A DNA stretch of 27,565 nt from a virus: positions 1 through 27,565 of IMG/VR virus record IMGVR_UViG_3300035698_023141; one strand, given 5' to 3'. A program made the position numbers and the translations under genes. Below are positions 4,116 through 26,872 of this stretch, piece after piece. Under the pieces are notes generated by a model that made no database searches, was not told the origin of the DNA, and worked only from the letters and a program-made list of their open reading frames with translations. Numbering within the stretch: the stretch's first letter is position 1; the number at the start of each line of letters is the position of its first letter.

Positions 4116-4151
4116 ATCACTGAAACAAAAACCACAAACAAGGAGAGAAAA

Positions 4152-4475: not shown

Positions 4476-4501
4476 ACCAACCACAAACAAGGAGCTTAAA
4501 A

Positions 4502-4798: not shown

Positions 4799-4822
4799 AG
4801 CCAAAAAGCAAGGAGATTAAAA

Positions 4823-4996
4823 ATGGCTACAGCAACTTTCAAGATCGTGCACAAGCATGCGCACCAAGAGTTTCAGGTAGAAGTTTACGAAAATGGCATA
4901 CGCAATGAAGCACGAACCTACTACACCGAATGGAGAGATGACGCAGAGCAGACAATGGCTGCAATGATTCTTGAGGAAGCCAACAACGCAGTTTAA
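4823..4996 (+). CDS. 57-residue early protein, unknown
   Basis: A short gene with a clear ribosome site (GCAAGGAGATTAAAA before the ATG). The product alternates hydrophobic and charged residues, predicting a beta-hairpin (residues 4-22) followed by a helix (36-55): the shape of a small alpha/beta miniprotein. No family recognised. It carries the same leader as its neighbours and fits exactly between the previous gene and the hairpin at 5007, supporting real coding despite its length. Confidence 0.7.
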   Translation: MATATFKIVHKHAHQEFQVEVYENGIRNEARTYYTEWRDDAEQTMAAMILEEANNAV

Positions 4997-5006
4997 CTTT
5001 TAGTGT

Positions 5007-5028
5007 CAGCCCTCAGCAATGAGGGTTG
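5007..5028 (+). other. Intergenic hairpin with GCAA tetraloop
   Basis: CAGCCCTCA (5007-5015) pairs with TGAGGGTTG (5020-5028), nine pairs including one G-U, closed by a GNRA-type GCAA loop. No T-run follows, so it is more likely an RNA-processing, stability or translation element than a terminator. It lies 11 bp after one gene and 46 bp before the next. Confidence 0.6.
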
Positions 5029-5073
5029 AGATATGAAGTTAAGCAAGAAAAATACAAACAAGGAGAAAAAACC

Positions 5074-5412
5074 ATGTGTAACAATGCTAACAATGGCTCA
5101 AAATGGATAACCAGAAAGCGTAGGTTTGCCATTTATGAGAGAGACGATCACCGTTGTGTCTATTGCGGGATTGGGATGGAAGACGCCAAAGAACCCTTCA
5201 CCCTTGACCATCTCGTGGCGCAGGAGCTTGGCGGCACAAACGCTTCAACTAACCTCGTAACTGCCTGTAAAACCTGCAACTGCAGCAAAGGCTCAAAATC
5301 AAACAGAAGTTTTTTCAAATTCCTCGAGAATAAAGATGTAGATGTTGCAAAAATTAAGCATAGAATCAGGCGCAACGTGCGACGTGCCCTCAAAGGTAAA
5401 TTTAGAATTTAA
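5074..5412 (+). CDS. HNH endonuclease (McrA/5-Cys type)
   Basis: A 112-residue HNH nuclease. C28-x2-C31 and C65-x2-C68 form the structural zinc site, and L-D45-H46 is the catalytic strand, followed by N60 and the terminal N69, giving a complete active site. The C-terminus (residues 85-112) is strongly basic and probably binds DNA. The start at 5074 is set by ACAAGGAG; an in-frame ATG 48 bases upstream would begin before this site. Free-standing phage HNH genes can be homing endonucleases or act in DNA processing. It differs from the HNH at 65-463 in architecture and is not a duplicate. Confidence 0.85.
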   Translation: MCNNANNGSKWITRKRRFAIYERDDHRCVYCGIGMEDAKEPFTLDHLVAQELGGTNASTNLVTACKTCNCSKGSKSNRSFFKFLENKDVDVAKIKHRIRRNVRRALKGKFRI

Positions 5413-5436
5413 AAAGGCCACAAAAAGGAGACCAAA

Positions 5437-5655
5437 ATGTCAGAAAACCAAATCAAAGAAGCTTTACGTGAACTTTTGGAAGGGATTGCAGCAGACTCTG
5501 AAACCAATGAAGACTTTATCAACGATGAAGCCTTGATAGACTGCTCGACAACTGATTATCATGACTCTGGTCTTTTGACTGGAGACACAGGACTGGTTCT
5601 TCAGCTTACTAATGGCGAAAATTACCACATAACAATTCAACAGAATGCCAACTAA
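5437..5655 (+). CDS. Small acidic early protein, unknown
   Basis: A 72-residue, very acidic protein: an N-terminal helix (residues 3-19) then a beta-rich second half ending in LVLQLTNGENYHITIQ. No family recognised. The strongly negative charge is a feature of DNA mimics and small phage inhibitors, but nothing more specific supports that. A good AAAAGGAG site precedes the ATG, and the gene lies 24 bp after the HNH gene and 32 bp before the GHKL ATPase gene. Confidence 0.7.
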   Translation: MSENQIKEALRELLEGIAADSETNEDFINDEALIDCSTTDYHDSGLLTGDTGLVLQLTNGENYHITIQQNAN

Positions 5656-5687
5656 AAACGTAAAAGCCCAAAAAACAAGGAGCAAAA

Positions 5688-12604: not shown

Positions 12605-12981
12605 TGGCCCTCAACGAGAAAAAGATTACTTCCTGGTTGGAAACAAAGGCAAAGCTGGGTGAATACAAGGCATTAGAGCTGGAGTTGCGGAAAGAACTTG
12701 TAGAAGCAGTATCAACACCCATCCCAGGAACATATCACAGTGAAACAGCCAAAGGCAAGCTCACTGCAACCGTCAAGCACAATTTCAAGGTTGATCCTAT
12801 CTCCTTAACACACATCTGGGGCACCTTATCACGTGAAGAAAAGGATTGTGTTAAACAAAAGCCAGAGCTCATTCTCAAACCATTTAAACTGCTGCCAAAG
12901 GACAGCCAGCTAAACAAGGCTATAATCGAAACCGATGCAACACCAACCCTCGCATTCAAGGAGGTAAAAGATGGCAATTAA
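12604..12981 (+). CDS. Phage protein next to Sak4, unknown
   Basis: A 125-residue protein. An N-terminal helix pair (residues 8-35) precedes a beta-rich centre (GTYHSETAKGKLTATVKHNF) and a helical end. Proteins of this shape often lie next to phage RecB-like exonuclease or single-strand annealing genes, but I cannot assign a function. It is coupled to both neighbours: TAATG at the start, and an 11-bp overlap with the Sak4-like gene, whose GGAGG site lies in its final codons. Confidence 0.65.
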   Translation: MALNEKKITSWLETKAKLGEYKALELELRKELVEAVSTPIPGTYHSETAKGKLTATVKHNFKVDPISLTHIWGTLSREEKDCVKQKPELILKPFKLLPKDSQLNKAIIETDATPTLAFKEVKDGN

Positions 12982-13687
12982 ACTGACAACCACAAAGCAG
13001 CAGGCAGGTGTTGTAAAAGCACTTGTCTATGGTGCTGCTGGTGTTGGCAAGACTGTGCTTTGTGATACAGCGCCAACACCTATTATTATTAGTGCAGAAG
13101 CTGGTTTATTGAGCCTTGCCAGCAAAGACATACCAGTCATTGAGGTTCATTCTTTAGGCGACCTAAACGAGGCATTCCTGTTTCTTGAGGAGTCAAAAGA
13201 AAGCAAGCACTTTGAAACGATCTGCCTTGATTCAGTCACAGATATAGCTGAGGTTTTACTGACTGAATTGAAGAAGAGCAACAAAGACCCAAGGGCAGCA
13301 TACGGTGACTTGGCAGACAAAATGGGTGAAATCATTCGCTCATTTCGTGATCTGCCAAACAGACATGTCTACTTTACGGCCAAGGTCAAGCGTATAGCCG
13401 ATGAAGTTGGTGTCAACCACTATGTCCCATCTATGCCAGGACAAATGCTCATCACAAACCTTCCGTATTGGTTCGATGAAGTGCTGGCTATGAGAATCGG
13501 TATGACCGATGATCAGGTGCAGTACAGGTATCTACAAACACAAGCTGACCTATTTTGGGAAGCCAAAGACAGATCAGGAAAGTTGGAGGCAATTGAAGAG
13601 CCTGATTTGAGCAAATTGTTTGCTAAAATTCAAGGAAAAAAGTCAACCACAAAACCAAAGACAAAAACAACAAAAAAGGAGAAGTAA
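12971..13687 (+). CDS. Sak4-like RecA-fold recombination ATPase
   Basis: A 238-residue phage nucleotide-binding protein of the AAA_24/Sak4 type. The P-loop G21-A-A-G-V-G-K-T28 is intact; the Walker B strand is TICLDSVTD (around residues 78-86), with the characteristic YGDLADKM helix following. Sak4 proteins are minimal RecA-core ATPases that promote single-strand annealing together with a phage SSB. The next gene, one base downstream, is a DUF669 SSB-like protein, the expected partner. The last 25 residues are a Lys/Thr-rich tail, probably disordered. GAGGTAAAAG before the ATG provides the ribosome site inside the previous gene. Confidence 0.8.
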   Translation: MAIKLTTTKQQAGVVKALVYGAAGVGKTVLCDTAPTPIIISAEAGLLSLASKDIPVIEVHSLGDLNEAFLFLEESKESKHFETICLDSVTDIAEVLLTELKKSNKDPRAAYGDLADKMGEIIRSFRDLPNRHVYFTAKVKRIADEVGVNHYVPSMPGQMLITNLPYWFDEVLAMRIGMTDDQVQYRYLQTQADLFWEAKDRSGKLEAIEEPDLSKLFAKIQGKKSTTKPKTKTTKKEK

Positions 13688-13688
13688 A

Positions 13689-14186
13689 ATGGCCGAATTA
13701 AATGGTGTTTTCGATTCAAGTCAGCATGACGACCTTGGTGGTGCCTTTGACCCAATCCCTGCTGGAGAGTACATGATGCAAATCGTTGAATCTTCAATCA
13801 ACGAAACAAAAACCAAAACAGGCAAATACATCAAGCTGACCCTGAAGGTCATTGATGGTGAGTACAAAGGCCGACAGATCTGGACGAACCTCAACATCGT
13901 CAACCCTAATCCGATTGCGGTTGAAATCGCCACAAAGGAGCTTGCAACAATCTGCCGTGCAGTAGGCAAATTGCAAATCGTTGACACAGCCGAACTTCAC
14001 GGCATCCCATTTCTGGGCCGTGTGAAAATCAGGGCAGCTTCCGGAGATTATCCGCCAAGCAATGATATGGTCGGATACAAAGCCACTGGAGCCACTGCAA
14101 CGGCACCTGCTTTTGTTGGTAGTAGCAATCCAGCACCGGTCGCTGAGACCACAGACCCAGACAAGGGCAAAGTCCCCTGGGCATAA
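13689..14186 (+). CDS. DUF669 SSB-like protein
   Basis: A 165-residue DUF669 protein. The conserved core runs from IPAGEYMMQIVES (residues 23-35) through KTKTGKYIKLTLKVIDGEYKG to the LGRVKI strand near residue 108, an OB-fold-like arrangement. DUF669 proteins replace SSB in many phages that carry annealing ATPases. The C-terminus, after a Pro/Ala-rich linker, ends in KVPWA, recalling the short hydrophobic tips through which SSBs recruit partners. The start at 13689 is one base after the previous stop, with AAGGAGAAG upstream. A strong hairpin (14197-14222) follows the gene. Confidence 0.8.
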   Translation: MAELNGVFDSSQHDDLGGAFDPIPAGEYMMQIVESSINETKTKTGKYIKLTLKVIDGEYKGRQIWTNLNIVNPNPIAVEIATKELATICRAVGKLQIVDTAELHGIPFLGRVKIRAASGDYPPSNDMVGYKATGATATAPAFVGSSNPAPVAETTDPDKGKVPWA

Positions 14187-14196
14187 ACCTTTAGCT

Positions 14197-14222
14197 GTGG
14201 CTCTCCTTCCGGGGAGAGCCAC
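14197..14222 (+). other. Strong hairpin after DUF669 gene
   Basis: GTGGCTCTCC (14197-14206) pairs perfectly with GGAGAGCCAC (14213-14222) around a TTCCGG loop. It lies 10 bp past the stop codon. No T-run follows and transcription must continue into the adjacent genes, so partial termination or mRNA 3'-end stabilisation of an abundant SSB message is more likely. Confidence 0.65.
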
Positions 14223-14233
14223 TTGGAGGCAAA

Positions 14234-14392
14234 ATGGGTTTATATGACAAGCCAATTTACATTGAAGAGAAAATCGATTTTGAATGTCTTGAATGTGGGC
14301 TAAAGATAACAGTTGTTGTTGAGCCTGAAGCAAAGGACAGGACATTCAAGTGTCTCGAGTGTGGAGGCACACTAACAAAGGAGCCAAAATGA
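14234..14392 (+). CDS. 52-residue zinc-ribbon miniprotein
   Basis: A short gene with TTGGAGGC before its ATG. The product has C18-x2-C21 and C40-x2-C43 in the two LEC knuckles (FECLECG and FKCLECGG), a classic zinc ribbon with a beta-hairpin between. Its stop overlaps the start of the exonuclease gene in ATGA, indicating coupling. Likely a small nucleic-acid or protein-binding accessory to the recombination enzymes; the symmetrical Cys pairs make it convincing despite its size. Confidence 0.7.
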   Translation: MGLYDKPIYIEEKIDFECLECGLKITVVVEPEAKDRTFKCLECGGTLTKEPK

Positions 14393-15213
14393 CAATAATT
14401 CCTCAAAGCATTATCAGGTTGAAAACAGAAATGCTGATAGAAGACCCACCTATCAAGCAGGTGACCAGGCCTTACATTGGCATTTCTGGCATTGGAAATG
14501 AATGCCCCAGAGCCTTGTGGTACGGCTTTCGTTGGGTAGCCATGCGTGAATTTGTGCCAAGGGTGCAAAGGCTTTTGACAAGAGGGCACCGTGAGGAGCC
14601 AATTATCATAGCCGATCTAAAGGCCATAGGTTGCGTTGTATCAGGTCGCCAGAAGACAATCATCACAGGCGAAGGCCACATCAAAGGCCATACTGATGGC
14701 ATTATCGAAAATGTCCCAGATGCCCCCAAGACCCCGCACCTGTTGGAACTCAAGACAGCCAATGACTCGAATTTCAAAAAGATCGTCAAACAAGGTGTCG
14801 AAAAAGCCAAACCAGAATACTATGCTCAGTGCCAGTGTTACATGGACAAACTGAACCTAAAGAGAGCATTGTTCATTGTGGTTAACAAGAATACTGATGC
14901 CAGGTATTATGAGCGCATCCACCTTAATAAAAAGGTGGCACAATTCTACTTCGACAGAGCCATGGATATCATCACTACAGAGATACCGCCTGATAAGATA
15001 GGTGCTTCTACGTGGTTTGCATGCAAGTGGTGTGATTATTATGATGTCTGTCAATTTGATGGGCCAATCAGTAAAAATTGCAGAACCTGTAAAAGTTTGG
15101 ATCTGCACCCAAAAGGCAGATGGCGCTGTTCTTTGCGAAAAGAGCCAAGAGGTGTAAAGAGACAGCGGGAAGGCTGTTCTATGTGGGAAAAAATGGAAGG
15201 ACTCAAAAGGTAG
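14389..15213 (+). CDS. Cas4/RecB-like PD-(D/E)XK exonuclease
   Basis: A 274-residue nuclease. Core motifs: H101-T-D103-G, L-E120-L-K122 and the downstream YYAQCQCYM helix (145-152), matching the RecB/Cas4-type PD-(D/E)XK fold. C212-x2-C215-x5-C221, plus a possible N-terminal C39, could hold the iron-sulphur cluster typical of this group. A further set, C231-x2-C234, C247 and C263, is an extra probable zinc finger at the C-terminus. In phages such enzymes produce single-stranded tails for annealing, matching the nearby Sak4-like and DUF669 genes. The ATG at 14389 overlaps the previous stop, with AAAGGAG upstream. Confidence 0.8.
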   Translation: MTIIPQSIIRLKTEMLIEDPPIKQVTRPYIGISGIGNECPRALWYGFRWVAMREFVPRVQRLLTRGHREEPIIIADLKAIGCVVSGRQKTIITGEGHIKGHTDGIIENVPDAPKTPHLLELKTANDSNFKKIVKQGVEKAKPEYYAQCQCYMDKLNLKRALFIVVNKNTDARYYERIHLNKKVAQFYFDRAMDIITTEIPPDKIGASTWFACKWCDYYDVCQFDGPISKNCRTCKSLDLHPKGRWRCSLRKEPRGVKRQREGCSMWEKMEGLKR

Positions 15214-15237
15214 GAGAGTAGCATAAGGAGAACAAAA

Positions 15238-16788
15238 ATGTTAAAACTAAGACCATACCAACAAGAAGCACTTGATGCAGTATGGCTTTACTATCGGGCT
15301 GGTAAAAAAGGCAACCCATTAGTAGTAGCCCCGACTGGGTCTGGCAAGTCTATCATTATTGCAGGTTTTTGCGAACAGGTCAGAAAACTATGGCCTGAAC
15401 AGAGAATTTTGATACTAAGCCATGTGAAAGAAATTCTAACCCAAAACTTGGCAACAATTCAGAAGCTGTTGCCCGACGAAGAAATTGGCATTTATGCAGC
15501 TGGTCTTAAGCGGAAGGAAATAAAGACCATTACACTGGCGTCTATCCAGTCTGCGTACAATCAAATGAAGCTGTTTGAAGAGAATTATGATGTTGTTCTT
15601 GTAGATGAAGTTCATTTGGTACCTCACAAGGGTGAAGGCAGATACAGAACAATGATGAAGGCCATTGACAAGCCAATCATAGGCTTCACAGCCACACCGT
15701 TTAGGCTTGGCACTGGGTACTTGCACATTGGTGAAGGTGCCATGTTTGATGAGATCGTATACAACATAACCATCAAGCTGTTGCAAAAAGAAGGACACCT
15801 TTGTCAGATTGCTGCCAAAGGCACACGTGAAACACTTGACCCAACTACTATTCAAAAGACTGGTGGCGATTACATTGTGAGAGACTTGGCTGAACGGTTT
15901 GACAAGTTTGCTGTCACCAGCAAAATCATTGATGAGTTGATCCTATACAAAGACCTTAGAAAAAAATGGCTTGTGTTTTGCATTGATATTAGCCATGCTG
16001 AGCACGTGACAGAAGAGCTTGTAGGGAAAGGTATCAATGCCAAATGTGTCCATAGCAAGTCACACGACAGATCCAGAACCATTTGGGAATTCAAAACTGA
16101 CCAGAATCTTCAAGCATTGGTGAGTGTTGCTGTTCTGACAACCGGCTTCGATGCACCCAATGTTGACATGGTGGCCTTGCTCAGACCCACAGCATCGCCA
16201 GTTTTGCACATTCAAACAATCGGTAGAGGACTCAGACCATTCCCAGGCAAGAAAGACTGCCTGGTGCTTGACTTCGCCGGCAATTTGATTAGAAATGGGC
16301 CAATTGATAACCCTGACATAAGGGTTGCAAAAACAGGCGGTGACCCAATAATGAAAATGTGTCCTGATTGTTTTGAATTGTTGTACTCGGCTGTGAGACG
16401 TTGCCCAGTGTGTGATTATGAGTTCCTATTCCAGCATCACCTGTCTTCAACTGCTGGTGATGGCAATGTGTTGCAAACTGTGGAATGGCACCACGTTGAT
16501 AAGGTTACATACGATGAATATTTGACAAGAACAAACATGTTCATGCTCAAAGTCAACTATTTCTGTGGTCTTAGGACATTCTCGGAGTATGTAGGCATTG
16601 AACATGGCGGTTACCCAAGGCACAAAGCAACCTTCTGGTGGAAAAGGAGACATCATAAATCTTTGCCGGACACAGTTGCAGCAGCATTAGAAATGGCACA
16701 TGACCTAAAGGAGCCAGTGGAGATTTACGTTGATGAAGCTGGACAATATCCAAACATTAAAGAAATGAAATTTGAGGAGGGAGCATGA
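15238..16788 (+). CDS. SF2 DEVH-box DNA helicase
   Basis: A 516-residue superfamily 2 helicase of the XPB/RadD-like type. Q-like RPYQQEA (5-11), Walker A A-P-T-G-S-G-K-S (31-38), D123-E-V-H126, T151-A-T, and the C-terminal domain with TTGFDAPN and QTIGRGLRPF are all present. After the motor comes a zinc ribbon (CPDC...CPVC, about residues 380-400), then a domain rich in aromatic and basic residues (FWWKRRHH) found in phage relatives. It likely unwinds DNA in replication or recombination. AAGGAG precedes the ATG; the stop overlaps the next ATG by four bases. Confidence 0.85.
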   Translation: MLKLRPYQQEALDAVWLYYRAGKKGNPLVVAPTGSGKSIIIAGFCEQVRKLWPEQRILILSHVKEILTQNLATIQKLLPDEEIGIYAAGLKRKEIKTITLASIQSAYNQMKLFEENYDVVLVDEVHLVPHKGEGRYRTMMKAIDKPIIGFTATPFRLGTGYLHIGEGAMFDEIVYNITIKLLQKEGHLCQIAAKGTRETLDPTTIQKTGGDYIVRDLAERFDKFAVTSKIIDELILYKDLRKKWLVFCIDISHAEHVTEELVGKGINAKCVHSKSHDRSRTIWEFKTDQNLQALVSVAVLTTGFDAPNVDMVALLRPTASPVLHIQTIGRGLRPFPGKKDCLVLDFAGNLIRNGPIDNPDIRVAKTGGDPIMKMCPDCFELLYSAVRRCPVCDYEFLFQHHLSSTAGDGNVLQTVEWHHVDKVTYDEYLTRTNMFMLKVNYFCGLRTFSEYVGIEHGGYPRHKATFWWKRRHHKSLPDTVAAALEMAHDLKEPVEIYVDEAGQYPNIKEMKFEEGA

Positions 16789-17756
16789 TAATCATAGGAA
16801 GCGGAATGGCAGGGCTTTTAGCAGGTGCTGTCAACCAAACCGCAATCATTTTCGAAGCTGGTGAGAATTTGCCAGACAATCACAAGGCTGTTTTCAGGTT
16901 GAGAACAGACGCCATAAGCCGTTTTACTGGCATCAAAATGAAAGAAGTGACAGTGCATAAGGCTATATGGTTTGAAGGCCAGGAGAGGCAAATAACACCA
17001 CGTCTGGCTAATTATTACTCAATGAAGGTCATAGGTTGTATTCAGCAAAGATCCATCTTGAATGTAGCCCCTGCCAAAAGGTTTATTCCACCAAGAAATT
17101 TCGTTGATCAGCTTGCTAAAAAGTGTGAAGGCAGAATCAGATTTGAATTCAAGGTGGAGCGAATAAACAAGAGCTTCATTGAGTTCTATAAACAGCCATT
17201 ATGCAGCAAGTGCACTGACAGAAAAGACACACCTGTTATAAGCACCATGCCTATGCCTGTTTTGTGCGATGCCATTGGGCATGTCATATCACGTGACAAA
17301 GATGGCCTTAAACCAATCAAATTCAAAACAGGCCCAATAGTCATAAATCAATACACAATACACAACTGTGATTCTTATGCCACAATCTATTATCCAGATC
17401 CTAAAATGAGTGCATACCGTGCCACACTTGATGGCAACAGACTCATTGTTGAAGGTGTAGAGTATTTGACATCTGCTGAAGTTCATGAAGTTATGCAAAG
17501 CTTTGGCATCAAAGATGCAACAGGAACTGTTATAAATCAGAGACACAAAGCCGGCAAAATGTCGCCGTTGGATCCAGATGTTAGGCAGGCATTCATATAC
17601 AACGTCACCAAGGATCTCAATGTTTACAGCCTGGGCAGGTATGCCACCTGGAGACCCAGTGTAATGCTCGATGATGTCTTTGAGGACATCTTTATGATCA
17701 CAAAATTGATCCAACAGAATGATTATGAGAAATTTAAATACATACAAGGAGAGTGA
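16785..17756 (+). CDS. FAD/NAD(P)-binding oxidoreductase
   Basis: A 323-residue flavoprotein-like enzyme. It opens directly with a Rossmann dinucleotide fold, M-I-I-I-G-S-G-M-A-G (G5, G7, G10), followed at residue 24 by the acidic end of the second strand (FEAGE). Near the C-terminus SLGRYATWRPSVMLDDVFEDI recalls UDP-galactopyranose-mutase-type and amine-oxidase-type flavoproteins, where this part completes the FAD pocket. A CSKC pair lies mid-protein. Substrate unknown. The gene overlaps the helicase by four bases (ATGA) and its GAGGAGGGA site lies in the helicase end. It is the first enzyme of a metabolic cassette running to 23502. Confidence 0.7.
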   Translation: MIIIGSGMAGLLAGAVNQTAIIFEAGENLPDNHKAVFRLRTDAISRFTGIKMKEVTVHKAIWFEGQERQITPRLANYYSMKVIGCIQQRSILNVAPAKRFIPPRNFVDQLAKKCEGRIRFEFKVERINKSFIEFYKQPLCSKCTDRKDTPVISTMPMPVLCDAIGHVISRDKDGLKPIKFKTGPIVINQYTIHNCDSYATIYYPDPKMSAYRATLDGNRLIVEGVEYLTSAEVHEVMQSFGIKDATGTVINQRHKAGKMSPLDPDVRQAFIYNVTKDLNVYSLGRYATWRPSVMLDDVFEDIFMITKLIQQNDYEKFKYIQGE

Positions 17757-17757
17757 A

Positions 17758-17964
17758 ATGGACATCAAAGACCTAAAAATGTCTATCGCATTAACATCAA
17801 AATCAATCAAGAAACAATTGACAGATCTTGAAACTATCTTGGAATCAGAAGGGTTGAAGATTCGATCTGTTGATATTAAAATGACGGACTGGGACATATC
17901 AACATACAGAGGGAGTGAGACACTTAAAGAGATACAGCTCGTCAAAATTGAAGTGGTGTTTTAA
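17758..17964 (+). CDS. 68-residue protein before thyX, unknown
   Basis: A small protein: an N-terminal amphipathic helix (residues 3-31) followed by two probable beta strands ending LVKIEVVF. The start at 17758 lies one base after the previous stop, with ACAAGGAG upstream. No family recognised; the size and fold order suggest a small partner or regulator. It is sandwiched between the flavoprotein and ThyX genes and shares their transcription. Confidence 0.65.
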   Translation: MDIKDLKMSIALTSKSIKKQLTDLETILESEGLKIRSVDIKMTDWDISTYRGSETLKEIQLVKIEVVF

Positions 17965-17988
17965 CCCATAATTTACAAGGAGGAGCAA

Positions 17989-18738
17989 ATGCAAGAATCA
18001 GTCAAATTGATCAGCTACACGAAAGATGCCCTGGAGTTGTTGCTTTACACCAAAAACACAAGGTTAGAAGGAGGAGAAACGATAAACAACATAAAAGCAT
18101 GGCCCATGGAGAAGAAGCTGGAGCACCTTGAGTACATGCGCAATACAATCAAATCCAGCTGGGAAATGGTCGATTTTATTTTCGAAATCAAAGGTGTTGA
18201 TAAAAACTTCACCCATCAACTGGTCAGAACCAGAACAGGATCGTATGCCCAGCAAGCCCAAAGGGTTGTGGATGCAAGGGAGTATCCTTATAGCCATCTT
18301 GTTCCTGAAGAAGATTATGATGAGGCAATTCAACACTGCCAGCAGGTTTACGGAGACCTAATCGACAAAGGCTACCAGGTTCAGGATTGCAGAGGTGTTC
18401 TGCCTGGGTCAATCCACACAGAAATCATCGCCAAATTCAATCTGCGCACCCTTCACGACACTGGCCTGGTAAGGCTATGCAAACGTGCTGAAGGCAGTTA
18501 TCAGAGAGTGTTTGCACTCATGAAACAAGCAGTTGTTGATGTTTACCCGTGGGCCGAAGACTTCATCAAGGTTGCTTGCGCCTGGAACGGTGTTTGTATT
18601 TTTCCGCTTTATGAAGCATGCCCTGTAAAATGTTGGACAATCAAAGCAACCCAGTATCAGCTTGACAGGATACAAAAAACATGGTCTGAAACAGTGCACG
18701 TAGCAAACCCTAAAGCCAAAGCAGGGAGGACAATGTAA
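17989..18738 (+). CDS. thyX: Flavin-dependent thymidylate synthase
   Basis: A 249-residue ThyX, which makes dTMP from dUMP using FAD, NADPH and methylenetetrahydrofolate. The ThyX signature is at residues 80-92, R-T-R-T-G-S-Y-A-Q-Q-A-Q-R; the usual second His is Thr and the late Ser is Ala. The preceding FTHQLV and later NLRTLHDTGLVRLCKRA segments also match. AAGGAGGAG precedes the ATG. Phages use ThyX to secure thymidylate or, through altered relatives, to make modified pyrimidine nucleotides. The neighbouring methyltransferases, SDR and radical SAM genes raise the second possibility. Its stop overlaps the next start in TAATG. Confidence 0.85.
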   Translation: MQESVKLISYTKDALELLLYTKNTRLEGGETINNIKAWPMEKKLEHLEYMRNTIKSSWEMVDFIFEIKGVDKNFTHQLVRTRTGSYAQQAQRVVDAREYPYSHLVPEEDYDEAIQHCQQVYGDLIDKGYQVQDCRGVLPGSIHTEIIAKFNLRTLHDTGLVRLCKRAEGSYQRVFALMKQAVVDVYPWAEDFIKVACAWNGVCIFPLYEACPVKCWTIKATQYQLDRIQKTWSETVHVANPKAKAGRTM

Positions 18739-19184
18739 TGGATGCAGTCATATTTGACATCGACGGAACCCTTTCCATCATAACGGAAGAGAGACAAGAA
18801 CTCATCAAAAAGCGCAGTTGGGACAAGTTCCATCGGCTCAGCATTTGTGCACCTGTGAATGAGGCAATCAAAGCCAAACTGTTGCATTATTGGGCAAGAC
18901 GCAACACAGAACTCGTTCTTCTAACAGCCAGAGCAGAAAGGTGGAGAGAATCAACAATCCACTGGCTTGAGAAGAACGATATACCTTTCGACAGGCTGTT
19001 GATGCGTATAAATGGAGACAGAAGGCAAAGTTTCCATAGTAAAAAAGAACACGTTGAAACACTCGTAAATTTTGAAGCACGCAATGTCATTGTGGCCTAT
19101 GACGACCGCCAACAGGACATTGATCTATTTGAGTCAATGGGAATCAAAGCAATCAAAGTGGAGGGACAGAATGAGCATTTTTGA
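18738..19184 (+). CDS. HAD phosphatase, PNKP 3'-phosphatase-like
   Basis: A 148-residue HAD-superfamily phosphatase. Motif I is F-D7-I-D9-G-T11; motif II LLTAR (61-65); then a WL...IPFDRLLMR-x-N-GD-R segment closely resembling the phosphatase half of T4-type polynucleotide kinase, and the acidic YDDRQQDID for motif IV. No kinase half is present. It could remove 3'-phosphates from DNA or RNA ends or dephosphorylate a nucleotide; within a cassette of nucleotide enzymes the latter is attractive. The start overlaps the thyX stop and the end overlaps the next gene by 14 bp. Confidence 0.75.
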   Translation: MDAVIFDIDGTLSIITEERQELIKKRSWDKFHRLSICAPVNEAIKAKLLHYWARRNTELVLLTARAERWRESTIHWLEKNDIPFDRLLMRINGDRRQSFHSKKEHVETLVNFEARNVIVAYDDRQQDIDLFESMGIKAIKVEGQNEHF

Positions 19185-20052
19185 TACAGTGAAGGCACTG
19201 CCTATAGACAAGAATAGCATCTACATACAGCATGAAGATCGTGATCCCAAGGCAAGCAGCCTTGATGGCTTCGATAAGAACCAACGGATACTGATGGGCC
19301 AAGATACCAGAAACTGGCTTCACCTGTATCGTATGCTCACACTGTTTAAATTTGTAACGGATCATACCAAGCAGCACAAAGGTGTGGTGGCTGACATTGG
19401 TGCTGCTTATTGTGAGCTGCCCACTTTGTGCCAAACATCTGGCATAAAGTATAATTACTACTGCTTTGAATTTGATTACAAAAAGTTGAAAACAGTTTCA
19501 AAGCGAACAATAGGCAAATTCAATAGAGTGCTGGTTAGGACTGATCTCAGCCGTGGTATTCTGCCTTTGCCAGATGAATCAGTAGACACAATGGTTTGTG
19601 CTGAGTTTGCTGAACACATCAAAAAAAGTAGTTGGATAAGGCTTTTGAAGGAGCTAAATCGTGTTTGCAAGCAAGGTGCATATGCCATTCTAACCACCCC
19701 TAATATAATAGCCGGTGGCACTCCGCAAGTAGACCACATATATGAGTATGCCCAAACAGAATTTGGTGAGCTGCTTGATGCAGCTGGCTTTTCTGTGTAT
19801 CGCAAATTCGGAATGGGAAGCAAAACAAATATTTTGAAATTCGACAAAACCATGCTGTCAAACAGCCTATACAAGCATGCCAGAGAAAATCTACCGACTG
19901 GTTTTGTGAAACCATTGATTGGCACTGAAGATATGGACAATTGCAAATTGTCCATATGGTATTGTAAAAAGGACAAGGAGTATGATATAGATGCAATCAA
20001 TTCAATTGACTTTAGTGAGTCTGCAAAAAGGCAATGGAGGGAAGCAAAATGA
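19171..20052 (+). CDS. Class I SAM methyltransferase, copy 1
   Basis: A 293-residue methyltransferase of the type 11 (UbiE-like) group. SAM-binding motif I is VVADIGAAYCELP (72-84), followed by the acidic FEFD (99-102), and ESVDTMVCAEFAEHI as motif IV. The absence of a DPPY/NPPY motif argues against direct N-methylation of DNA bases; small-molecule or nucleotide substrates, or a protein, are more likely. The start at 19171 (GTGGAGGGACAG upstream) overlaps the HAD gene by 14 bp. The next gene is a paralogue, about two thirds identical by eye, with a 38-base identical DNA stretch. Confidence 0.75.
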   Translation: MSIFDTVKALPIDKNSIYIQHEDRDPKASSLDGFDKNQRILMGQDTRNWLHLYRMLTLFKFVTDHTKQHKGVVADIGAAYCELPTLCQTSGIKYNYYCFEFDYKKLKTVSKRTIGKFNRVLVRTDLSRGILPLPDESVDTMVCAEFAEHIKKSSWIRLLKELNRVCKQGAYAILTTPNIIAGGTPQVDHIYEYAQTEFGELLDAAGFSVYRKFGMGSKTNILKFDKTMLSNSLYKHARENLPTGFVKPLIGTEDMDNCKLSIWYCKKDKEYDIDAINSIDFSESAKRQWREAK

Positions 20053-20497
20053 GCATAGTAAAATTCGATAAAGTCAAATTGGCCGAGATCTTGCGTAACC
20101 AGCTTGGCGACAAAGTAGTTAGCATTGACATTGATGAATCAAAAAGCAATGTAAATGTTACCTTTGACAATAATGACATATTTGATACAGTCAAAGCACT
20201 GCCGATGGATGCATATGGTGTGTACACAAAGAACAAACGATGTGACACCAAAACAAATCACCTTGAAGGAAGCGACAAAGTGCAAAAAATATTTTCGGGG
20301 TTGGATACTAAAAATTGGTTGCACATGTACAGAATACTCATAAATTTTAAATTCTTGTTAGACAATGCCAACCCACAGTCTGTAGTAGCTGATGTTGGGG
20401 CTGGGTATTGTGAACTGCCAATGATGTGTCAAACATCTGGTAAACGGTATAATTATTATTGCTTTGAATTTGATTACAAAAAGTTGAAAACAGTTTC
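19462..20497 (+). repeat. 38-bp identical direct repeat in duplicated genes
   Basis: Bases 19462-19499 and 20460-20497 are identical over 38 bp, encoding the same segment (CFEFDYKKLKTVS) of the two methyltransferases, 998 bp apart. It marks a tandem duplication and a potential recombination point that could delete or fuse the copies. Confidence 0.9.
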
Positions 20498-21065
20498 CAA
20501 ACGCAAAATAGGTAAATTCAACAGGATCCTTGTCAGAATCGACCTTAGTAGGTCTGCTTTGCCGATGCCAGATGGATCAGTGGATACATTGGTATGCACA
20601 GAATTTGCTGAACACATCAAGAAAAACAATTGGATCAAATTATTGAAAGAGTTAAATCGCATTTGCAAACAAGGTGCACATGCCATATTTAGCACCCCAA
20701 ATATAGGCGGTGGCGGTATCCCACAAGCAGACCATATATATGAGTATACTCACACAGAGTTCTCAGAACTTGTTGATGCTGCTGGCTTTTCTGTGTATCG
20801 TAAATTTGGTATGGCGCCAAGGAAAAACATTGTAAAATTCGACAAAGAGTTATCATCAAACACCATATACAAACATGCTAGAGAAAACTTGCCAACTCAA
20901 TTTGTCAAACCATTGATAGGCACCGATGATATAGACAACTGTAAAATGGGAGTTTGGTTTTGCAAGAAAACCAAAGAATATAATGCAAATGCAATCAAAG
21001 CAATTGATTTTAGTGAATCTATGAAGTGCAGAGAAGCAATAGAATCAGCAGGAGGAGCCAGATGA
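20049..21065 (+). CDS. Class I SAM methyltransferase, copy 2
   Basis: A 338-residue paralogue of the preceding gene. Residues 1-43 are an extra N-terminal segment (probable beta-hairpin, helical start) absent from copy 1; from IFDTVKALP on the two align without major gaps. Motif I reads VVADVGAGYCELP, and GSVDTLVCTEFAEHI keeps the active-site region. Copy 1 has A where copy 2 has the canonical second Gly of motif I, a possible functional difference. The four-base overlap at 20049-20052 couples them. Two copies suggest two successive methylations or two substrates, or a heterodimer. Confidence 0.75.
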   Translation: MSIVKFDKVKLAEILRNQLGDKVVSIDIDESKSNVNVTFDNNDIFDTVKALPMDAYGVYTKNKRCDTKTNHLEGSDKVQKIFSGLDTKNWLHMYRILINFKFLLDNANPQSVVADVGAGYCELPMMCQTSGKRYNYYCFEFDYKKLKTVSKRKIGKFNRILVRIDLSRSALPMPDGSVDTLVCTEFAEHIKKNNWIKLLKELNRICKQGAHAIFSTPNIGGGGIPQADHIYEYTHTEFSELVDAAGFSVYRKFGMAPRKNIVKFDKELSSNTIYKHARENLPTQFVKPLIGTDDIDNCKMGVWFCKKTKEYNANAIKAIDFSESMKCREAIESAGGAR

Positions 21066-21352
21066 AACCAGATGAAATTCTCGAAAAATGGGCCAAATTT
21101 TTCAAAAAGCGCAACGAAGAATATGGGTCGTCATACTTACGCCACGGGGAAATAATGAAGCTGCTTTTCCCCAACGGCATCACACTTGAAACAGCCGACC
21201 ATTTTTATTACTTCCACATTTTCGTATTAGAACTTGTCAAGATCATTCGCATTGCAAACTCAATGCAGGCTGGCACTTCAAGCCTTGACTCATGGAAAGA
21301 CCTTGCAGTTTACGCAGCTATGTTTGTTGAAAAGGAGGAAGAGAATGACTAA
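21062..21352 (+). CDS. DUF1599/MazG-like nucleotide-linked protein
   Basis: A 96-residue all-helical protein. W-x4-F-x2-R-N-E-E-Y-G at residues 9-22, a central helix ELVKIIRIAN (60-69) and the closing DSWKDLAVYAAMF resemble DUF1599 and MazG-type all-alpha pyrophosphatases, where the E-E-Y-G/K-x2-R/D-x3-D residues hold metal and nucleotide. DUF1599 has been described as a nucleotide-modification-associated domain in phage DNA-modification operons. The match is by pattern, hence moderate. It starts in ATGA with the methyltransferase stop and overlaps the SDR start by eight bases. Confidence 0.6.
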   Translation: MKPDEILEKWAKFFKKRNEEYGSSYLRHGEIMKLLFPNGITLETADHFYYFHIFVLELVKIIRIANSMQAGTSSLDSWKDLAVYAAMFVEKEEEND

Positions 21353-22058
21353 AATCGTTATAACTGGAGCAGCATCAGGACTTGGATATGCTATGGCCTT
21401 ATCATTGGGATATGAGAGTGACACACTGATATTTGGACTTGACATAGAAACTGTTTCATCACCGGTCATCGATTTCAAAATATGTAATATCAGTCAGGAG
21501 CATGATACACTGAGAGCAGCCGAAATGATAGGCGATGTTGACATTCTTATCAATTGTGCTGGAGTAAATTTTATTGACTGGATCGAAAACACAACCGGCC
21601 ATGATTGGGATCGTATCATGGGCACAAATGCCAAAGGCATATTCAACACCGCCAAGGCTTTTATGCCAGCCTTGCTCAAGTCACAAGGAACCATTTTGAA
21701 CATCGTCAGTAACGCATCTCACATGCCTATGACAAACTCCATAGCATACAACGCAAGCAAGGGTGCTGCTCACATTATGACCCTGCAAATGGCCAGGGAA
21801 CTGGGCCCAAAGGGCATCACTGTATTTGGGATCTCACCGAATAAACTGGCCGGCACCGGTATGTCAAGATACATAGAGAATACGGTGTGTGGATTAAGGG
21901 GTTGGACACCTGAAGAAGCAGCAAAGTACCAGCTAAGCTCACTGCCGGCAGGTGAAGAAACAAATCCTGCTGTGTTGGCTGAGTTTATTACTTTTATATT
22001 GTCAACCAAGGAACGTCATAAATTTTTGGCTGGGACAATCCTGCCATACGGAAAATAG
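21345..22058 (+). CDS. Short-chain dehydrogenase/reductase
   Basis: A 237-residue SDR oxidoreductase. It has the cofactor motif T7-G-A-A-S-G-L-G14, the NCAG variant of NNAG (70-73), the active-site Y135-x3-K139 with Ser in the preceding VSNAS, and the usual length for the classical SDR group. Residue D33 at the end of the second strand (GLDI) suggests preference for NAD(H). Substrate unknown. AAAGGAGGAAGAG lies before the start at 21345, inside the end of the previous gene. An SDR between methyltransferases and a radical SAM enzyme is unusual in phages and points to a small-molecule pathway. Confidence 0.85.
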   Translation: MTKIVITGAASGLGYAMALSLGYESDTLIFGLDIETVSSPVIDFKICNISQEHDTLRAAEMIGDVDILINCAGVNFIDWIENTTGHDWDRIMGTNAKGIFNTAKAFMPALLKSQGTILNIVSNASHMPMTNSIAYNASKGAAHIMTLQMARELGPKGITVFGISPNKLAGTGMSRYIENTVCGLRGWTPEEAAKYQLSSLPAGEETNPAVLAEFITFILSTKERHKFLAGTILPYGK

Positions 22059-22067
22059 GAGAGACAA

Positions 22068-22553
22068 ATGAAAATTGATCAAATTGCAATAGGTACGGAT
22101 GCACCGAATACTATCATAGCTGTCCTCAACAGCATATTCGGATTGAATGAATGGGCTCACGATGTTGTCGTTGCGAAAGGCACTGTTTTCAATCTCTCAG
22201 CAACGAATGAAGCTGAATTGCACTTCAATTATCAACTCGGCATTGAAGTAGAAGTGCTTCGTTATAAACAAGGAGCCAATTGGCATCAAAACAGGAACCA
22301 CAATAATGCCATTGCCTTTCTGAGCCATGTAGGCATGCATTGCACAGAAGAAGATGTTGATGTTATGAAAAAATCGATGGCAGAAATGGGCATTGGGATA
22401 GCGCAGGAAGTCAACACGCTGTCACATACGAACCCATTTATAGATGGCAAACGGCTTTACCACTATGTTGTGTTTGACTCGAAAGCGAAATTAGGTGTTG
22501 ATGTCAAATGCATTGTGAGAAACATGCTCACGGAAGGAGAAAACAATGACTGA
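22068..22553 (+). CDS. VOC-fold (glyoxalase-like) protein
   Basis: A 161-residue protein resembling the vicinal oxygen chelate superfamily: paired beta-alpha-beta-beta modules, with E of IEVEVLRYK (about 62) and the His residues of HVGMH (91-95) in positions suited to metal binding, and a final YHYVVFDS...GVDVK strand pair. VOC enzymes isomerise, cleave or epimerise small molecules using a divalent metal. GGAGAG precedes the ATG. The stop overlaps the radical SAM start by eight bases. Specificity cannot be predicted; the fold call is moderate. Confidence 0.6.
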   Translation: MKIDQIAIGTDAPNTIIAVLNSIFGLNEWAHDVVVAKGTVFNLSATNEAELHFNYQLGIEVEVLRYKQGANWHQNRNHNNAIAFLSHVGMHCTEEDVDVMKKSMAEMGIGIAQEVNTLSHTNPFIDGKRLYHYVVFDSKAKLGVDVKCIVRNMLTEGENND

Positions 22554-23502
22554 CAAACACAAAAAAATAATGAGGTATATGAGATACGTGGACAGCTCAC
22601 TTGCACCTGTGTCTTTACAGGTTGGCATCACTGACCACTGCATAAACAAGTGCTACATGTGTGGGCATCCGGACAGAAAAGACAAGACTGAATTGGATTT
22701 GCATGATTGGCTGTTCTTCTTGTCCAGCCACCCGGAGATAGAATCTGTGTGCTATTCAGGAGGTGATCCTGTTTTATATTCAGGCATCAATGAAGTGATG
22801 GCTTTTCACATCAGACACAACATCAAATTCGGATTGATCACAGCTGGATACTTTCCAAATGCTGATCTTGGTCTATTGGCAGAAGCCAGATGGGTGCGTG
22901 TCAGCCTTGATTCAGTCACACCAAGCATTTATGACGAATGTAGAGGTGGCATCAGTGTCAACAAGGTTATAGACAGCATTTTGCAGGCGAAAGTTCAAAG
23001 TGTCAACATAGAATTGAACATAACAGTCAGCGAAAAAACAGTCCCAGGCCTAAACAGGCTATTCGAATTTGCGTTGATAAACCAATTGAATTTGGAGCTT
23101 CACCCTATATATGGTGGATCGATACGTAAATTGGGGATAGACGATCTGCTGCACGAATACGCAAATGCATTTTCTAAAAAAGGCATCCCATTTGATGTGA
23201 TATGCTACAACGATTCACAGCCAACCAACAAATGCAAAGCTGTTTATTACCAGTCTTTCATTGATGCGAAAGGAGACATTTACCCTTGCTGTATGATGGC
23301 TGGTGACACAACTGATTCGCCACAAGGGCCAAAGGTTGGCAACATTTTCCATTGGGGTGAATATCTGGAAGCAAGGGAAATATTCTCAAATTTGACAGCA
23401 GAAGAGCTTCCAAAGATGTGTAGTACTTGTCCAGAAAGGCTACGCCTGATAAACAACACCATTGGCAGTGACTCAAGGCACTACACGAAATCTTTTTTCT
23501 AA
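22546..23502 (+). CDS. Radical SAM enzyme with SPASM-like tail
   Basis: A 318-residue radical SAM protein. C32-x3-C36-x2-C39 binds the 4Fe-4S cluster; S-G-G-D-P (71-75) is the GGE-type SAM motif. The C-terminus has C230, C248, C249, C292 and C295 in the SPASM-like auxiliary-cluster layout (DAKGDIYPCC, then MCSTCPERL). Such enzymes use a 5'-deoxyadenosyl radical to modify peptides, tRNA or small molecules. GGAAGGAG lies before the start. It ends the metabolic cassette, nine bases before the exonuclease gene. No precursor peptide gene is visible, so a nucleotide or small-molecule substrate is favoured. Confidence 0.85.
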   Translation: MTDKHKKIMRYMRYVDSSLAPVSLQVGITDHCINKCYMCGHPDRKDKTELDLHDWLFFLSSHPEIESVCYSGGDPVLYSGINEVMAFHIRHNIKFGLITAGYFPNADLGLLAEARWVRVSLDSVTPSIYDECRGGISVNKVIDSILQAKVQSVNIELNITVSEKTVPGLNRLFEFALINQLNLELHPIYGGSIRKLGIDDLLHEYANAFSKKGIPFDVICYNDSQPTNKCKAVYYQSFIDAKGDIYPCCMMAGDTTDSPQGPKVGNIFHWGEYLEAREIFSNLTAEELPKMCSTCPERLRLINNTIGSDSRHYTKSFF

Positions 23503-23511: not shown

Positions 23512-24072
23512 ATGTCAATAATTTTTGTCGACACAGAAACCACTGGATTGATTGAGACCGAAGGCAACGACATCATGAATCAGCCTTACATAATAGAAAT
23601 ATTCGCACTTAGAACCAATGAACAGTGTGAGGAAGAGGATCGTTTCCATGCTTTGGTGAAGCCACCCAAGCCGTTGCCAAAAATAATAACAAAGATCACA
23701 GGGCTTACTGATGAAAAGCTGAAAAATGAAAAACCATTTGCCTCTATTTACAGGCCACTGGTAAACATATTTTTCGGTGTCCATACATTCGTGGCCCACA
23801 ATGCTGTTTTTGACTTAGGCATGTTGACCAATGAATTAACAAGGATAGAAAGGCAATACATGTTTCCATATCCGCCAATCCATTTTTGTACAGTTGAACA
23901 GTCTATGTTCGTAAAAGGGCACCGGCTCAAGCTTGTAGAGCTGCACAAACTTGCCACAGGCAAACCAGAAATAGAGAATGCCCATAGGGCTGAATCCGAT
24001 GTCATGGCTATGGTTGCCTGTTATAAATGGCTCAAACAACTAAAGGAGAATAAAGGAAATGACCTGGCTTAA
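23512..24072 (+). CDS. DnaQ-like 3'-5' exonuclease
   Basis: A 186-residue DEDDh exonuclease of the DNA polymerase III epsilon type. Catalytic residues: D7-x-E9 (VDTETTG), D101 in VAHNAVFD, and H158-x4-D163 (AHRAESD). The AAGGAGG site lies eight bases before the ATG. The gene overlaps the polymerase gene by 14 bp, so the proofreading subunit and polymerase are translationally coupled, as for a two-protein phage replicase. Confidence 0.85.
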   Translation: MSIIFVDTETTGLIETEGNDIMNQPYIIEIFALRTNEQCEEEDRFHALVKPPKPLPKIITKITGLTDEKLKNEKPFASIYRPLVNIFFGVHTFVAHNAVFDLGMLTNELTRIERQYMFPYPPIHFCTVEQSMFVKGHRLKLVELHKLATGKPEIENAHRAESDVMAMVACYKWLKQLKENKGNDLA

Positions 24073-26872
24073 TTTGCATACAGAATTCAGTTTCGGCTCC
24101 GTTTTTGGCCACATAGAAAAAGTGGCTGAACATGTTGAAGGGCAAGCATTTGCAGGCATTGCAGACTACTGTTCAACATGGGGCCACGTCAAATGGAGGA
24201 AGTTTTGTCAGAAAAATAACGTCAAACCGGTCTATGGAGTCAAGTTACCTGTGGTGGATCAACTTCAAAGGGAGGTGAGAAGGTATCCATACAATGACAT
24301 GACGTTCATTGCTATAACAACAAAAGGTCTGCAGGCCATATATCAGCTTGTAGATTTTGCCCATCAACAGTTTTATTACCGTCCCAGATTGACTTACGAC
24401 CAGGTCAATGACCTACCGGCTGAACATATTGCCGTTTTTTCAGGGATAGCGCCAAGAACAGACCTTTTGAAGAGGCATTTTTACTTGGAGCTAACCCCTG
24501 CTACGCCTGATCATTTGAGGCAGGTCACAGATATCCCAATTATTGCTGGGTGTGACAACTCATATATCAACCCGGAAGACAAAATTGTGTATGAGCCGTT
24601 TGCGCATGAGCGAAAAATTGAGCGCAAAACCTCATCACAATACATCATTAGTTGGAATGACTGGTGGGAAATGTATCCTGGCTGCAAAGAAGGCATAAAA
24701 AACCTTATTGAGCTTGGAGAAAAGTGCAATGCCGAGCTTACCAATGCGGACATGGTCAAATTTTACAAGAAAGCAGACATACACAAGCTATGTTTGGCTG
24801 GTGCCAAGCGTAGAAAAATTGATTTAACAGACCCAGTTTACAAGGATCGGTACGATTTTGAAATGAAACTCATAAAAGACAAGGGTTATATTGATTATTT
24901 TCTTGTAGTTGCTGACGTTATCAAGTACGCCAAGACAAAAATGGTTGTAGGCCCAGCACGAGGAAGTAGTGCCGGCAGTTTAGTGTGTTATCTCATGGAC
25001 ATCACAGAGGTAGATCCAATACCTTACGGGCTTTATTTTGAACGATTCATTGACATCAACCGTTTTGACTTGCCTGATATTGACGTTGATTTTCAAGACG
25101 ACAGAAGGGATCTGATAATCAAGTATTTGCAAAGAAAGTATGGCAAAGAAAACGTGTCCCAGATGGGTAATGTCAATAGGATGAAGCCGAAGTCAGCAAT
25201 CACAAGGTTTTCCAAAACACTAAACATACCGATTGAAGATGTGATTGAAATGAAAGATGCCATCTTGAAACGATCTGGCGGTGATTCAAGAGCTGCTTTG
25301 TGTATAGAGGATACAATCAATGAAACTGATGTAGGCAAACGGTTCATCGAGAAGTATCCAAGCATGAAGATCCTGTCAAAAATAGAATCACATGTGAGCC
25401 ACGCTGGAATTCACGCAGCCGGCATTCTTGTTTGCAACAAGCCTATCACAAATTATTGTGGCATCAACAGCCGTGATAATAAACGCATTGGCATGCTGGA
25501 TAAAAAGGATGCGGAAGCTATTAATTTGCTAAAAATAGACGCATTAGGACTCAGGACATTGACGATCTTTGCCAAGGTATGCGATTCTATTGGCAAACCT
25601 TATCCATGGCTCTACACAATTCCTTTAGATGATCCTGATGCATATAAAGTGTTCAATGATCAACGGTTGACTGGCATCTTTCAATTTGAAGGCCACGTTT
25701 CAAGGTCTTTGAATAAACAAATGCCAATAGAAAACATGGAAGATATATCAGCATTAGTTGCTATCGCTCGGCCTGGTCCTATTGTATCAGGCGGTGCCAC
25801 TGCTTATATTGAAGCCAGAACAGGCAAACACAAAGTTGAGTACATAAGCAAACATCCAACCGTGATAAAGGCAACCAAAGATACATTTGGTGTTGTCATC
25901 TATCAGGAACAGGTACTGAACATTGGCAGAAATTACGGTGGGCTCAGTTGGGCAGACACCAGTGAACTAAGGAAGGCAATGAGTAAATCTTTAGGTGAAG
26001 AATTTTTCGATCAATATAAGAAAAAGTTTGTTGATGGCGCTATCAAGAAAGGAGAAACAGAAGAAGATGCTATAAAAGTTTGGAAGTACATAAATACCTT
26101 TGGTTCATGGGGGATGAATAAGAGTCACACCATTAGTTACTCTATTATCAGTTATCTGTGCGCATACCTCAAGGCTCATTACCCAATGGAATTTGCTGTG
26201 GCTTGCCTCAATCATGCCAAAGACGATCCATCTGCGCTGAAACTGTTGAGGGACTTGTATGAAACTGAAGGCATTGAGTATGTGCCTTATGACGTCAAAC
26301 TCAGCGAAGTTAAATGGTCAGTGAAGAAGGGCAAGCTATATGGTGGCCTGACAACCATCCATGGCATTGGCCCAGCTAATGCCAGGAAAATAATCAAGTT
26401 GAGAAAGGAAAAGAAAAAATTCCCACCTGGCATTCAGAAAAAACTCAAAGAGGGTATCACTCCTTTTGAGTTTCTGTACCCAGCCACTGAAAAGTATGGG
26501 GAATATTACAAGACCCCGAAAGAATTTGGTGTCAAAGGCAAAATCAAAACAGTCAGCCAAGTCACCAAAAATGGCAAGTATACTATCATTGGTTGTTTGA
26601 TCCACAAGAATCTAAGGGATTCAAACGAGATTATGAATGTGTCAAAAAGAGGTGGCAAGTATTTGGATGGGCCAACGTCTTGGCTCAACTTGACGTTAGA
26701 AGATGACACTGACAATATAATTTGCACCATAGGCAGGTTCGATTACGAACGTGTAGGCATACATATAGCTGAAACAGGCAAAGAGAACAAGGACTGGTAC
26801 ATGGTATATGGCGTAATGAAGAGTGATTGGAGAAAATTATATGTACAAAACATAAGGAGGATCACAAAGTGA
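24059..26872 (+). CDS. dnaE: DNA polymerase III alpha-type replicase
   Basis: A 937-residue C-family polymerase. The N-terminal PHP domain is degenerate (N5-L-H7-T, where the active HxH has lost its first His), so it probably lacks metal-dependent nuclease activity. The palm has G-P-A-R-G-S-S-A-G (298-306), the catalytic pair D340-x-D342 in LPDIDVDF and the third carboxylate D494 in LLKIDALGL; the fingers and KSHTISYSI loop follow. After residue 830 an OB-like strand set (YTIIGCLIHK, SWLNLTLED) remains, shorter than in bacterial DnaE. It overlaps the DnaQ-like gene at its start and the next gene at its stop. It is the phage's replicative polymerase, expected to meet whatever modified nucleotide is made upstream. 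Confidence 0.9.
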   Translation: MTWLNLHTEFSFGSVFGHIEKVAEHVEGQAFAGIADYCSTWGHVKWRKFCQKNNVKPVYGVKLPVVDQLQREVRRYPYNDMTFIAITTKGLQAIYQLVDFAHQQFYYRPRLTYDQVNDLPAEHIAVFSGIAPRTDLLKRHFYLELTPATPDHLRQVTDIPIIAGCDNSYINPEDKIVYEPFAHERKIERKTSSQYIISWNDWWEMYPGCKEGIKNLIELGEKCNAELTNADMVKFYKKADIHKLCLAGAKRRKIDLTDPVYKDRYDFEMKLIKDKGYIDYFLVVADVIKYAKTKMVVGPARGSSAGSLVCYLMDITEVDPIPYGLYFERFIDINRFDLPDIDVDFQDDRRDLIIKYLQRKYGKENVSQMGNVNRMKPKSAITRFSKTLNIPIEDVIEMKDAILKRSGGDSRAALCIEDTINETDVGKRFIEKYPSMKILSKIESHVSHAGIHAAGILVCNKPITNYCGINSRDNKRIGMLDKKDAEAINLLKIDALGLRTLTIFAKVCDSIGKPYPWLYTIPLDDPDAYKVFNDQRLTGIFQFEGHVSRSLNKQMPIENMEDISALVAIARPGPIVSGGATAYIEARTGKHKVEYISKHPTVIKATKDTFGVVIYQEQVLNIGRNYGGLSWADTSELRKAMSKSLGEEFFDQYKKKFVDGAIKKGETEEDAIKVWKYINTFGSWGMNKSHTISYSIISYLCAYLKAHYPMEFAVACLNHAKDDPSALKLLRDLYETEGIEYVPYDVKLSEVKWSVKKGKLYGGLTTIHGIGPANARKIIKLRKEKKKFPPGIQKKLKEGITPFEFLYPATEKYGEYYKTPKEFGVKGKIKTVSQVTKNGKYTIIGCLIHKNLRDSNEIMNVSKRGGKYLDGPTSWLNLTLEDDTDNIICTIGRFDYERVGIHIAETGKENKDWYMVYGVMKSDWRKLYVQNIRRITK

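Follow-up and report, generated by a model that had tools for sequence, protein, structure and literature searches.

What does a run of ten closely packed genes, lying between a helicase and a DNA polymerase, make for the virus that carries it? The question is raised by a cassette at positions 16785-23502 of the linear IMG/VR virus record IMGVR_UViG_3300035698_023141, all 27,565 nt (27.6 kb) of which were analyzed and are called the window here. The initial annotation had described ten coupled, mostly overlapping genes ahead of DnaQ and polymerase genes, and this layout was borne out: all ten open reading frames (ORFs) are present, on the + strand and closely packed. The same annotation had treated the ten genes as one unusual pathway, a view that gave way in our comparison to a conserved core with variable add-ons. 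The core comprises about four genes, namely a UDP-galactopyranose mutase (UGM)-like flavoprotein, a divergent ThyX, a PNKP-type HAD phosphatase and a small helical DUF6378-like protein, followed by DnaQ and the polymerase III alpha subunit (PolIII-alpha), whereas an SDR oxidoreductase with a VOC protein and a radical SAM enzyme are optional and a methyltransferase pair turned up in the window alone. The cassette is a widespread phage module, found in more than 100 other phage contigs, and not a one-off, a description that draws directly on gene content, linkage, gene fusion, interchangeable add-ons, an altered ThyX motif and a predicted fold. Most likely, its product is a chemically altered, probably thymine-like component of DNA that shields the phage genome from bacterial enzymes.

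Viral contigs were retrieved with the flavoprotein (80) and with the VOC protein (80), their ORFs were labeled with profiles from window proteins, and each seed served as an independent test of the remaining genes. Among the 120 loci carrying both the flavoprotein and the polymerase, ThyX was found in 120, DnaQ in 118, the DUF6378-like protein in 106, HAD in 98, SDR in 74 and VOC in 71, with all cassette genes on one strand. Gene order in other phages, chosen beforehand as a test, was retained in 111 of the 119 scorable loci, and the genes were not scattered or unlinked. In 36/36 contigs that were seeded by VOC and extended 5.5 kb or more upstream of it, the flavoprotein, ThyX, HAD, DUF6378-like and SDR genes were all present, and DnaQ and polymerase followed downstream in 61/61 VOC-seeded contigs; the genes are therefore linked far beyond chance. 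ThyX and polymerase were likewise present in 54/54 flavoprotein-seeded contigs, and in four minimal loci (L018, L019, L021, and L058) the recognized genes were the flavoprotein, ThyX, DnaQ and polymerase only.

The core was also found in PB1, JG024, Wifcevirus, Myosmarvirus and Carpasinavirus. Serratia phage MTx, Escherichia coli Wifcevirus WFC and Xanthomonas phage Carpasina share the order flavoprotein, ThyX, HAD-DUF6378 fusion (annotated 'polynucleotide kinase/phosphorylase'), SDR, VOC, DnaQ and PolIII, and Pbunavirus PB1 and JG024 carry the flavoprotein, ThyX, HAD-DUF6378 fusion, DnaQ and polymerase without SDR or VOC. Pbunaviruses with the core include Pseudomonas phages used in therapy. 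In Vibrio phage VA-RY-3, the flavoprotein and ThyX are followed by a weakly HAD-like protein, a sulfotransferase and then DnaQ. Across the phage collection, flavoprotein and ThyX counts were equal in each main group (291 in Pseudomonas, 27 in Escherichia, 9 in Serratia, and 6 in Xanthomonas phages). A region of Microbacterium phage Sparcetus (L167, 5779-14105) holds phosphatase, SDR, VOC and DUF6378-like genes beside split PolIII genes, along with genes for a glycosyltransferase and for a distant ThyX whose motif reads RQR, and is perhaps a diverged form of the cassette; its 'oxidoreductase' matched the flavoprotein profile locally over just 31 columns, so kinship with the flavoprotein is unproven.

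The flavoprotein (16785..17756, + strand) was named as such in the initial annotation, and the label was upheld by phrog_4828 (3.7e-73) and a structural model, though nothing in Pfam exceeded the cut-off (best match, E 0.15). Its AlphaFold2 model (predicted local distance difference test [pLDDT], 92) has the UGM/protoporphyrinogen oxidase (PPOX) fold of proteins binding flavin adenine dinucleotide (FAD), and G5, G7 and G10 of the GxGxxG FAD motif are invariant in the alignment. The fold was matched over its whole length, the nearest structures being eukaryotic UGM 4dsh/4dsg (VIA Z 23.9, 299 residues, 3.1 Å) and the next protoporphyrinogen oxidases; by sequence profile, the match to UGM was weak (best E 0.033). 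The cassette protein differs from UGM/PPOX flavoproteins in being 17% identical, about 150 residues shorter and located in a phage cassette. A pattern scan of 84,980 genomes, with incomplete sensitivity, recovered a single cellular relative, on a contig of a metagenome-assembled genome, and the flavoprotein therefore looks phage-restricted.

Its constant partner (17989..18738, + strand) belongs to the ThyX family by its Thy1 domain (PF02511, E=1.9e-27; 96.7 bits against a cut-off of 24.8) and aligns with the ThyX structure 3gwc. It differs from the FAD-dependent thymidylate synthase in always being paired with the flavoprotein, in scoring 64.4 bits on TIGR02170, the NCBIfam thyX equivalog, under the cut-off of 87.9, and in its RHRx7S signature, which reads RTRTGSYAQQA in the window. 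R[T/N/S]R replaces RHR in about 141 of 147 cassette ThyX proteins, with loss of the histidine, and RHR was kept in three of four unrelated viral ThyX controls. UGM characteristically forms a covalent adduct at flavin N5, and ThyX uses flavin to pass a one-carbon unit to deoxyuridine monophosphate (dUMP). From these two chemistries, we infer that joint flavin-based chemistry of the two enzymes at C5 is plausible.

The start codon of the PNKP-family HAD phosphatase (18738..19184, + strand; HAD_PNKP PF25109, 4.5e-16; phrog_415, 6.7e-30) begins on the final base of ThyX, and its DxDGT motif is intact. The four-helix protein at 21062..21352 (+ strand) had been labeled DUF1599-like, an identity that was rejected, as Pfam gave no DUF1599 match; it matches the C-terminal part of phrog_4889 (2.3e-16), and its best Pfam match is DUF6378, at E 0.0071 and 17 bits against a cut-off of 27.1. 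A MazG/DUF1599 identity was likewise unsupported by profile or fold. The AlphaFold2 model (pLDDT, 94.5) has four helices, and residues Y22, K61, R64, D77 and D81 are invariant in the alignment. HAD and the DUF6378-like protein are fused in 20 loci, as they are in PB1 and JG024. A separate gene resembling Pyr_excise, the pyrimidine dimer glycosylase family (E 0.004, under the cut-off), often lies between ThyX and HAD (e.g., L117:2484-3032), with about 30 related ORFs in cassette contigs.

Between the core genes lie interchangeable enzymes: SDR with VOC, small class I methyltransferases, an FkbM methyltransferase, a sulfotransferase and a NodU/CmcH-type carbamoyltransferase. Hydroxyl or amino groups are the usual targets of decorating enzymes of these types. 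In the window, the SDR (21345..22058, + strand, likely ATG at 21345; adh_short PF00106, 9e-33; phrog_3142, 2.4e-40) has intact TGxxxGxG and YxxxK motifs, and SDR and VOC nearly always occurred as a pair in the 120 loci. The VOC/glyoxalase-superfamily label (22068..22553, + strand) is favored by conserved relatives at one syntenic position, although its Pfam match is weak (PF13669, 0.0025); its profile gave weak, uninformative matches in the PDB. The radical SAM/SPASM enzyme (22546..23502, + strand; Radical_SAM PF04055, 2.7e-10; SPASM PF13186, 1.9e-5) starts within VOC and has an intact CxxxCxxC motif. Its relatives were absent from phage records and were found in viral contigs only, where the gene lay inside the cassette, upstream of the polymerase, in 12/12 contigs of a radical SAM-seeded search; one of these (L177) has SDR and VOC, with the flavoprotein and ThyX not in its available part. 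The two class I SAM methyltransferases (19171..20052, likely ATG at 19171, Methyltransf_11 PF08241, 1e-8; 20034..21065, PF08241, 4e-10; both + strand) are tandem paralogues, 68% identical, and by their sequences represent a tandem duplication; single-protein and paired-alignment searches found no relatives of them in phage records or viral contigs. Pfam matches thus agreed with the initial labels of ThyX, the PNKP-like HAD, both methyltransferases, the SDR and the radical SAM/SPASM enzyme. A conserved protein of 250-290 aa (L083:10172-11017 and relatives), glycosyltransferase-like by eye and with no Pfam match, was also noted in the cassette of five contigs.

How often the add-ons changed was counted on a flavoprotein tree of the 91 loci left after de-replication, many contigs being near copies. 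There were 15-17 changes for VOC, depending on the counting of mixed loci, 10 for methyltransferase, 4 for radical SAM, 3 for sulfotransferase and 2 for carbamoyltransferase, counts that are approximate because the tree came from a quick search and has many open forks; starred branches alone force at least five changes in the VOC group. Such frequent changes indicate that tailoring modules were swapped on a fixed core.

Published restriction phenotypes are available for two carriers of the cassette, JG024 and Wifcevirus. JG024 virion DNA was uncut by ScaI (AGTACT), NdeI (CATATG) and BsaI (GGTCTC) despite predicted NdeI and BsaI sites, and XbaI (TCTAGA) digested it with a full pattern (PMC10913387). 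SacII (CCGCGG) also cuts JG024 DNA (PMC3008698), and the cutting of these GC-only sites argues against full replacement of C or G, leaving A or T. Since the cassette contains ThyX, T is favored as the modified base. Wifcevirus resists nearly all restriction systems tested, and the BASEL authors recognized in it none of the known means of protection (PMC11990801). Together with the divergent ThyX, the exchangeable tailoring enzymes and this published resistance favor the general idea of the initial annotation, a route to nucleotide or DNA modification. A 2025 preprint reportedly may already describe hypermodified Pbunavirus DNA, which makes the reading that follows more probable.

In our view, the probable role of the cassette is to supply phage DNA with a modified deoxynucleotide, a 5-substituted deoxyuridine decorated by swappable enzymes. 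We infer its substrates, products and order of steps as follows. The ThyX variant and the UGM-like flavoprotein would use flavin, with folate as the carrier of a one-carbon unit, to form a 5-substituted-methyl deoxyuridine nucleotide, possibly hydroxymethyl- or another CH2-X-dUMP, in place of or besides plain thymidine monophosphate (dTMP). The HAD/DUF6378-like pair may trim or channel nucleotides, for example by removing the canonical competitor. Optional enzymes would then decorate the handle, in the window through SDR and VOC, the radical SAM enzyme and the two methyltransferases, and in other phages by sulfation, carbamoylation or other methylation. The product could be taken up by the co-encoded PolIII/DnaQ or completed on DNA, and the finished base would shield phage DNA from host nucleases. 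More tentatively, we suggest an uncharacterized class of hypermodification, in which the ThyX variant and the flavoprotein build the 5-substituted-methyl deoxyuridine nucleotide before replication and plug-in enzymes give lineage-specific bases, including those of therapeutic Pbunaviruses. If true, a conserved core with interchangeable tailoring would explain the restriction resistance of Pbunaviruses, several new DNA bases (sulfated, carbamoylated, and methylated) would be predicted, and a ThyX-based route would run parallel to the known ThyA-based one.

That known route, the 5-hydroxymethyldeoxyuridine (5-hmdU) hypermodification of M6, ViI and SP10, proceeds through a ThyA-type hydroxymethylase, a DNA-level kinase and a pyrophosphorylase, whereas in the cassette a variant ThyX is paired with the UGM-like flavoprotein. 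The ThyA-type hydroxymethylase (PF00303) was found in 0/7 complete relatives, with positive controls, the window, a fragment, not being searched for ThyA; the 5-hmdU DNA kinase (PF18723) matched 0/7 relatives in a search without a positive control. The cassette and the M6, ViI and SP10 route have in common a thymidylate-synthase relative near DNA polymerase, restriction protection, accessory flavin and radical SAM enzymes and, as proposed here, a decorated pyrimidine (in part from PMC9599517 and PMC6449724). The cassette would thus work in the manner of phage DNA hypermodification, yet as far as tested it falls outside the ThyA/kinase/pyrophosphorylase pathway. MnmG, the partner of MnmE in tRNA modification, is a flavoprotein. 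Precedent for a larger group at uridine C5 comes from MnmEG, which attaches a carboxymethylaminomethyl group there (PMC9626948); it acts on tRNA and is a chemical precedent only, apart from any sequence relation.

Several observations weigh against a modified deoxynucleotide. XbaI cuts JG024 DNA, and replacement would therefore be incomplete or context-dependent; the JG024 authors put the resistance down to methylation (PMC10913387). The DUF6378-like fold had no match in the PDB (Foldseek best E 2.8). Six cassette ThyX proteins retain the RHR histidine, with one extra residue ahead of the downstream polar position, and an unrelated phage ThyX (Lizz) lacks the histidine, so the altered motif is not shared by every cassette ThyX and also occurs outside the cassette. 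The window's methyltransferases are without viral relatives found, and the window phage is known here from its sequence alone.

The best-surviving alternative, in our judgment unlikely, is ordinary nucleotide supply or repair, with ThyX making dTMP, HAD and the DUF6378-like protein trimming nucleotides or DNA ends, and the rest being unrelated passengers that a permissive site has let in. Phages do commonly carry ThyX and nucleotide hydrolases, and the SDR, VOC, radical SAM and methyltransferase genes vary between relatives; against this reading stand the ThyX beside the flavoprotein in 120/120 loci, the near-constant SDR-VOC pair, a radical SAM family lying within the cassette in 12/12 contigs, the altered ThyX signature and the restriction resistance of cassette phages. 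Still less probable is a soluble cofactor, modified sugar nucleotide or signaling molecule, made by enzymes that could act on a nucleotide sugar: the almost constant position of the cassette, packed tightly against DnaQ and PolIII, the obligate ThyX partner, the lack of a glycosyltransferase common to the cassette and the restriction phenotypes all speak against it, even though the UGM substrate is UDP-galactose, the flavoprotein fold is nearest eukaryotic UGM, and carbamoyl-, sulfo- and FkbM methyltransferases often modify sugars or antibiotics. Least probable is that DNA modification is real but a different gene, such as a DNA methyltransferase, makes JG024 and Wifcevirus resistant, while the cassette does something else, as the assumed methylation in JG024 and the frequency of phage methyltransferases might suggest, since this leaves the conserved tailoring cassette unexplained and no known protection mechanism was seen in Wifcevirus.

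The modified-deoxynucleotide cassette thus proposed sits in the early/replication region of its phage, which comprises a helicase/primase-like gene (- strand), a Sak4-like annealing protein, SSB, a Cas4-type exonuclease, a helicase, the cassette, DnaQ, PolIII-alpha and a resolvase-like gene. The DEAD-type helicase (15238-16788) borders the cassette upstream and overlaps the flavoprotein at 16785; adjacent cassette genes mostly overlap or abut. Downstream lie the DnaQ-like 3'-5' exonuclease (23512..24072, + strand; phrog_192, 1.2e-38), the near-invariant neighbor in 118/120 loci, and the invariant DnaE-type DNA polymerase III alpha (24059..26872, + strand; phrog_405, 2.5e-240). A small protein of unassigned function (17719..17964, + strand; possible alternative start at 17758) occurs in the window only, among the loci compared. 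No RNA family match and no tRNA were found in the window.

On comparison of window 12971-16788 with L005 3420-7166, the order Sak4, SSB, Cas4-exonuclease and helicase was that of Vibrio phage VA-RY-3 and about 12 viral contigs. The window perhaps falls within this broad lineage, though DNA similarity is undetectable; in a search for close DNA relatives, the SDR alone matched, at 66-67%, in Serratia phages. Positions 3000-5690 hold about 2.6 kb with short ORFs only, where several of these are directly preceded by repeated ACAAACAAGGAG-type leader elements and AT-rich palindromes CTTTTTTTAAAAAAAG also occur, an arrangement that suggests an early-gene control region.

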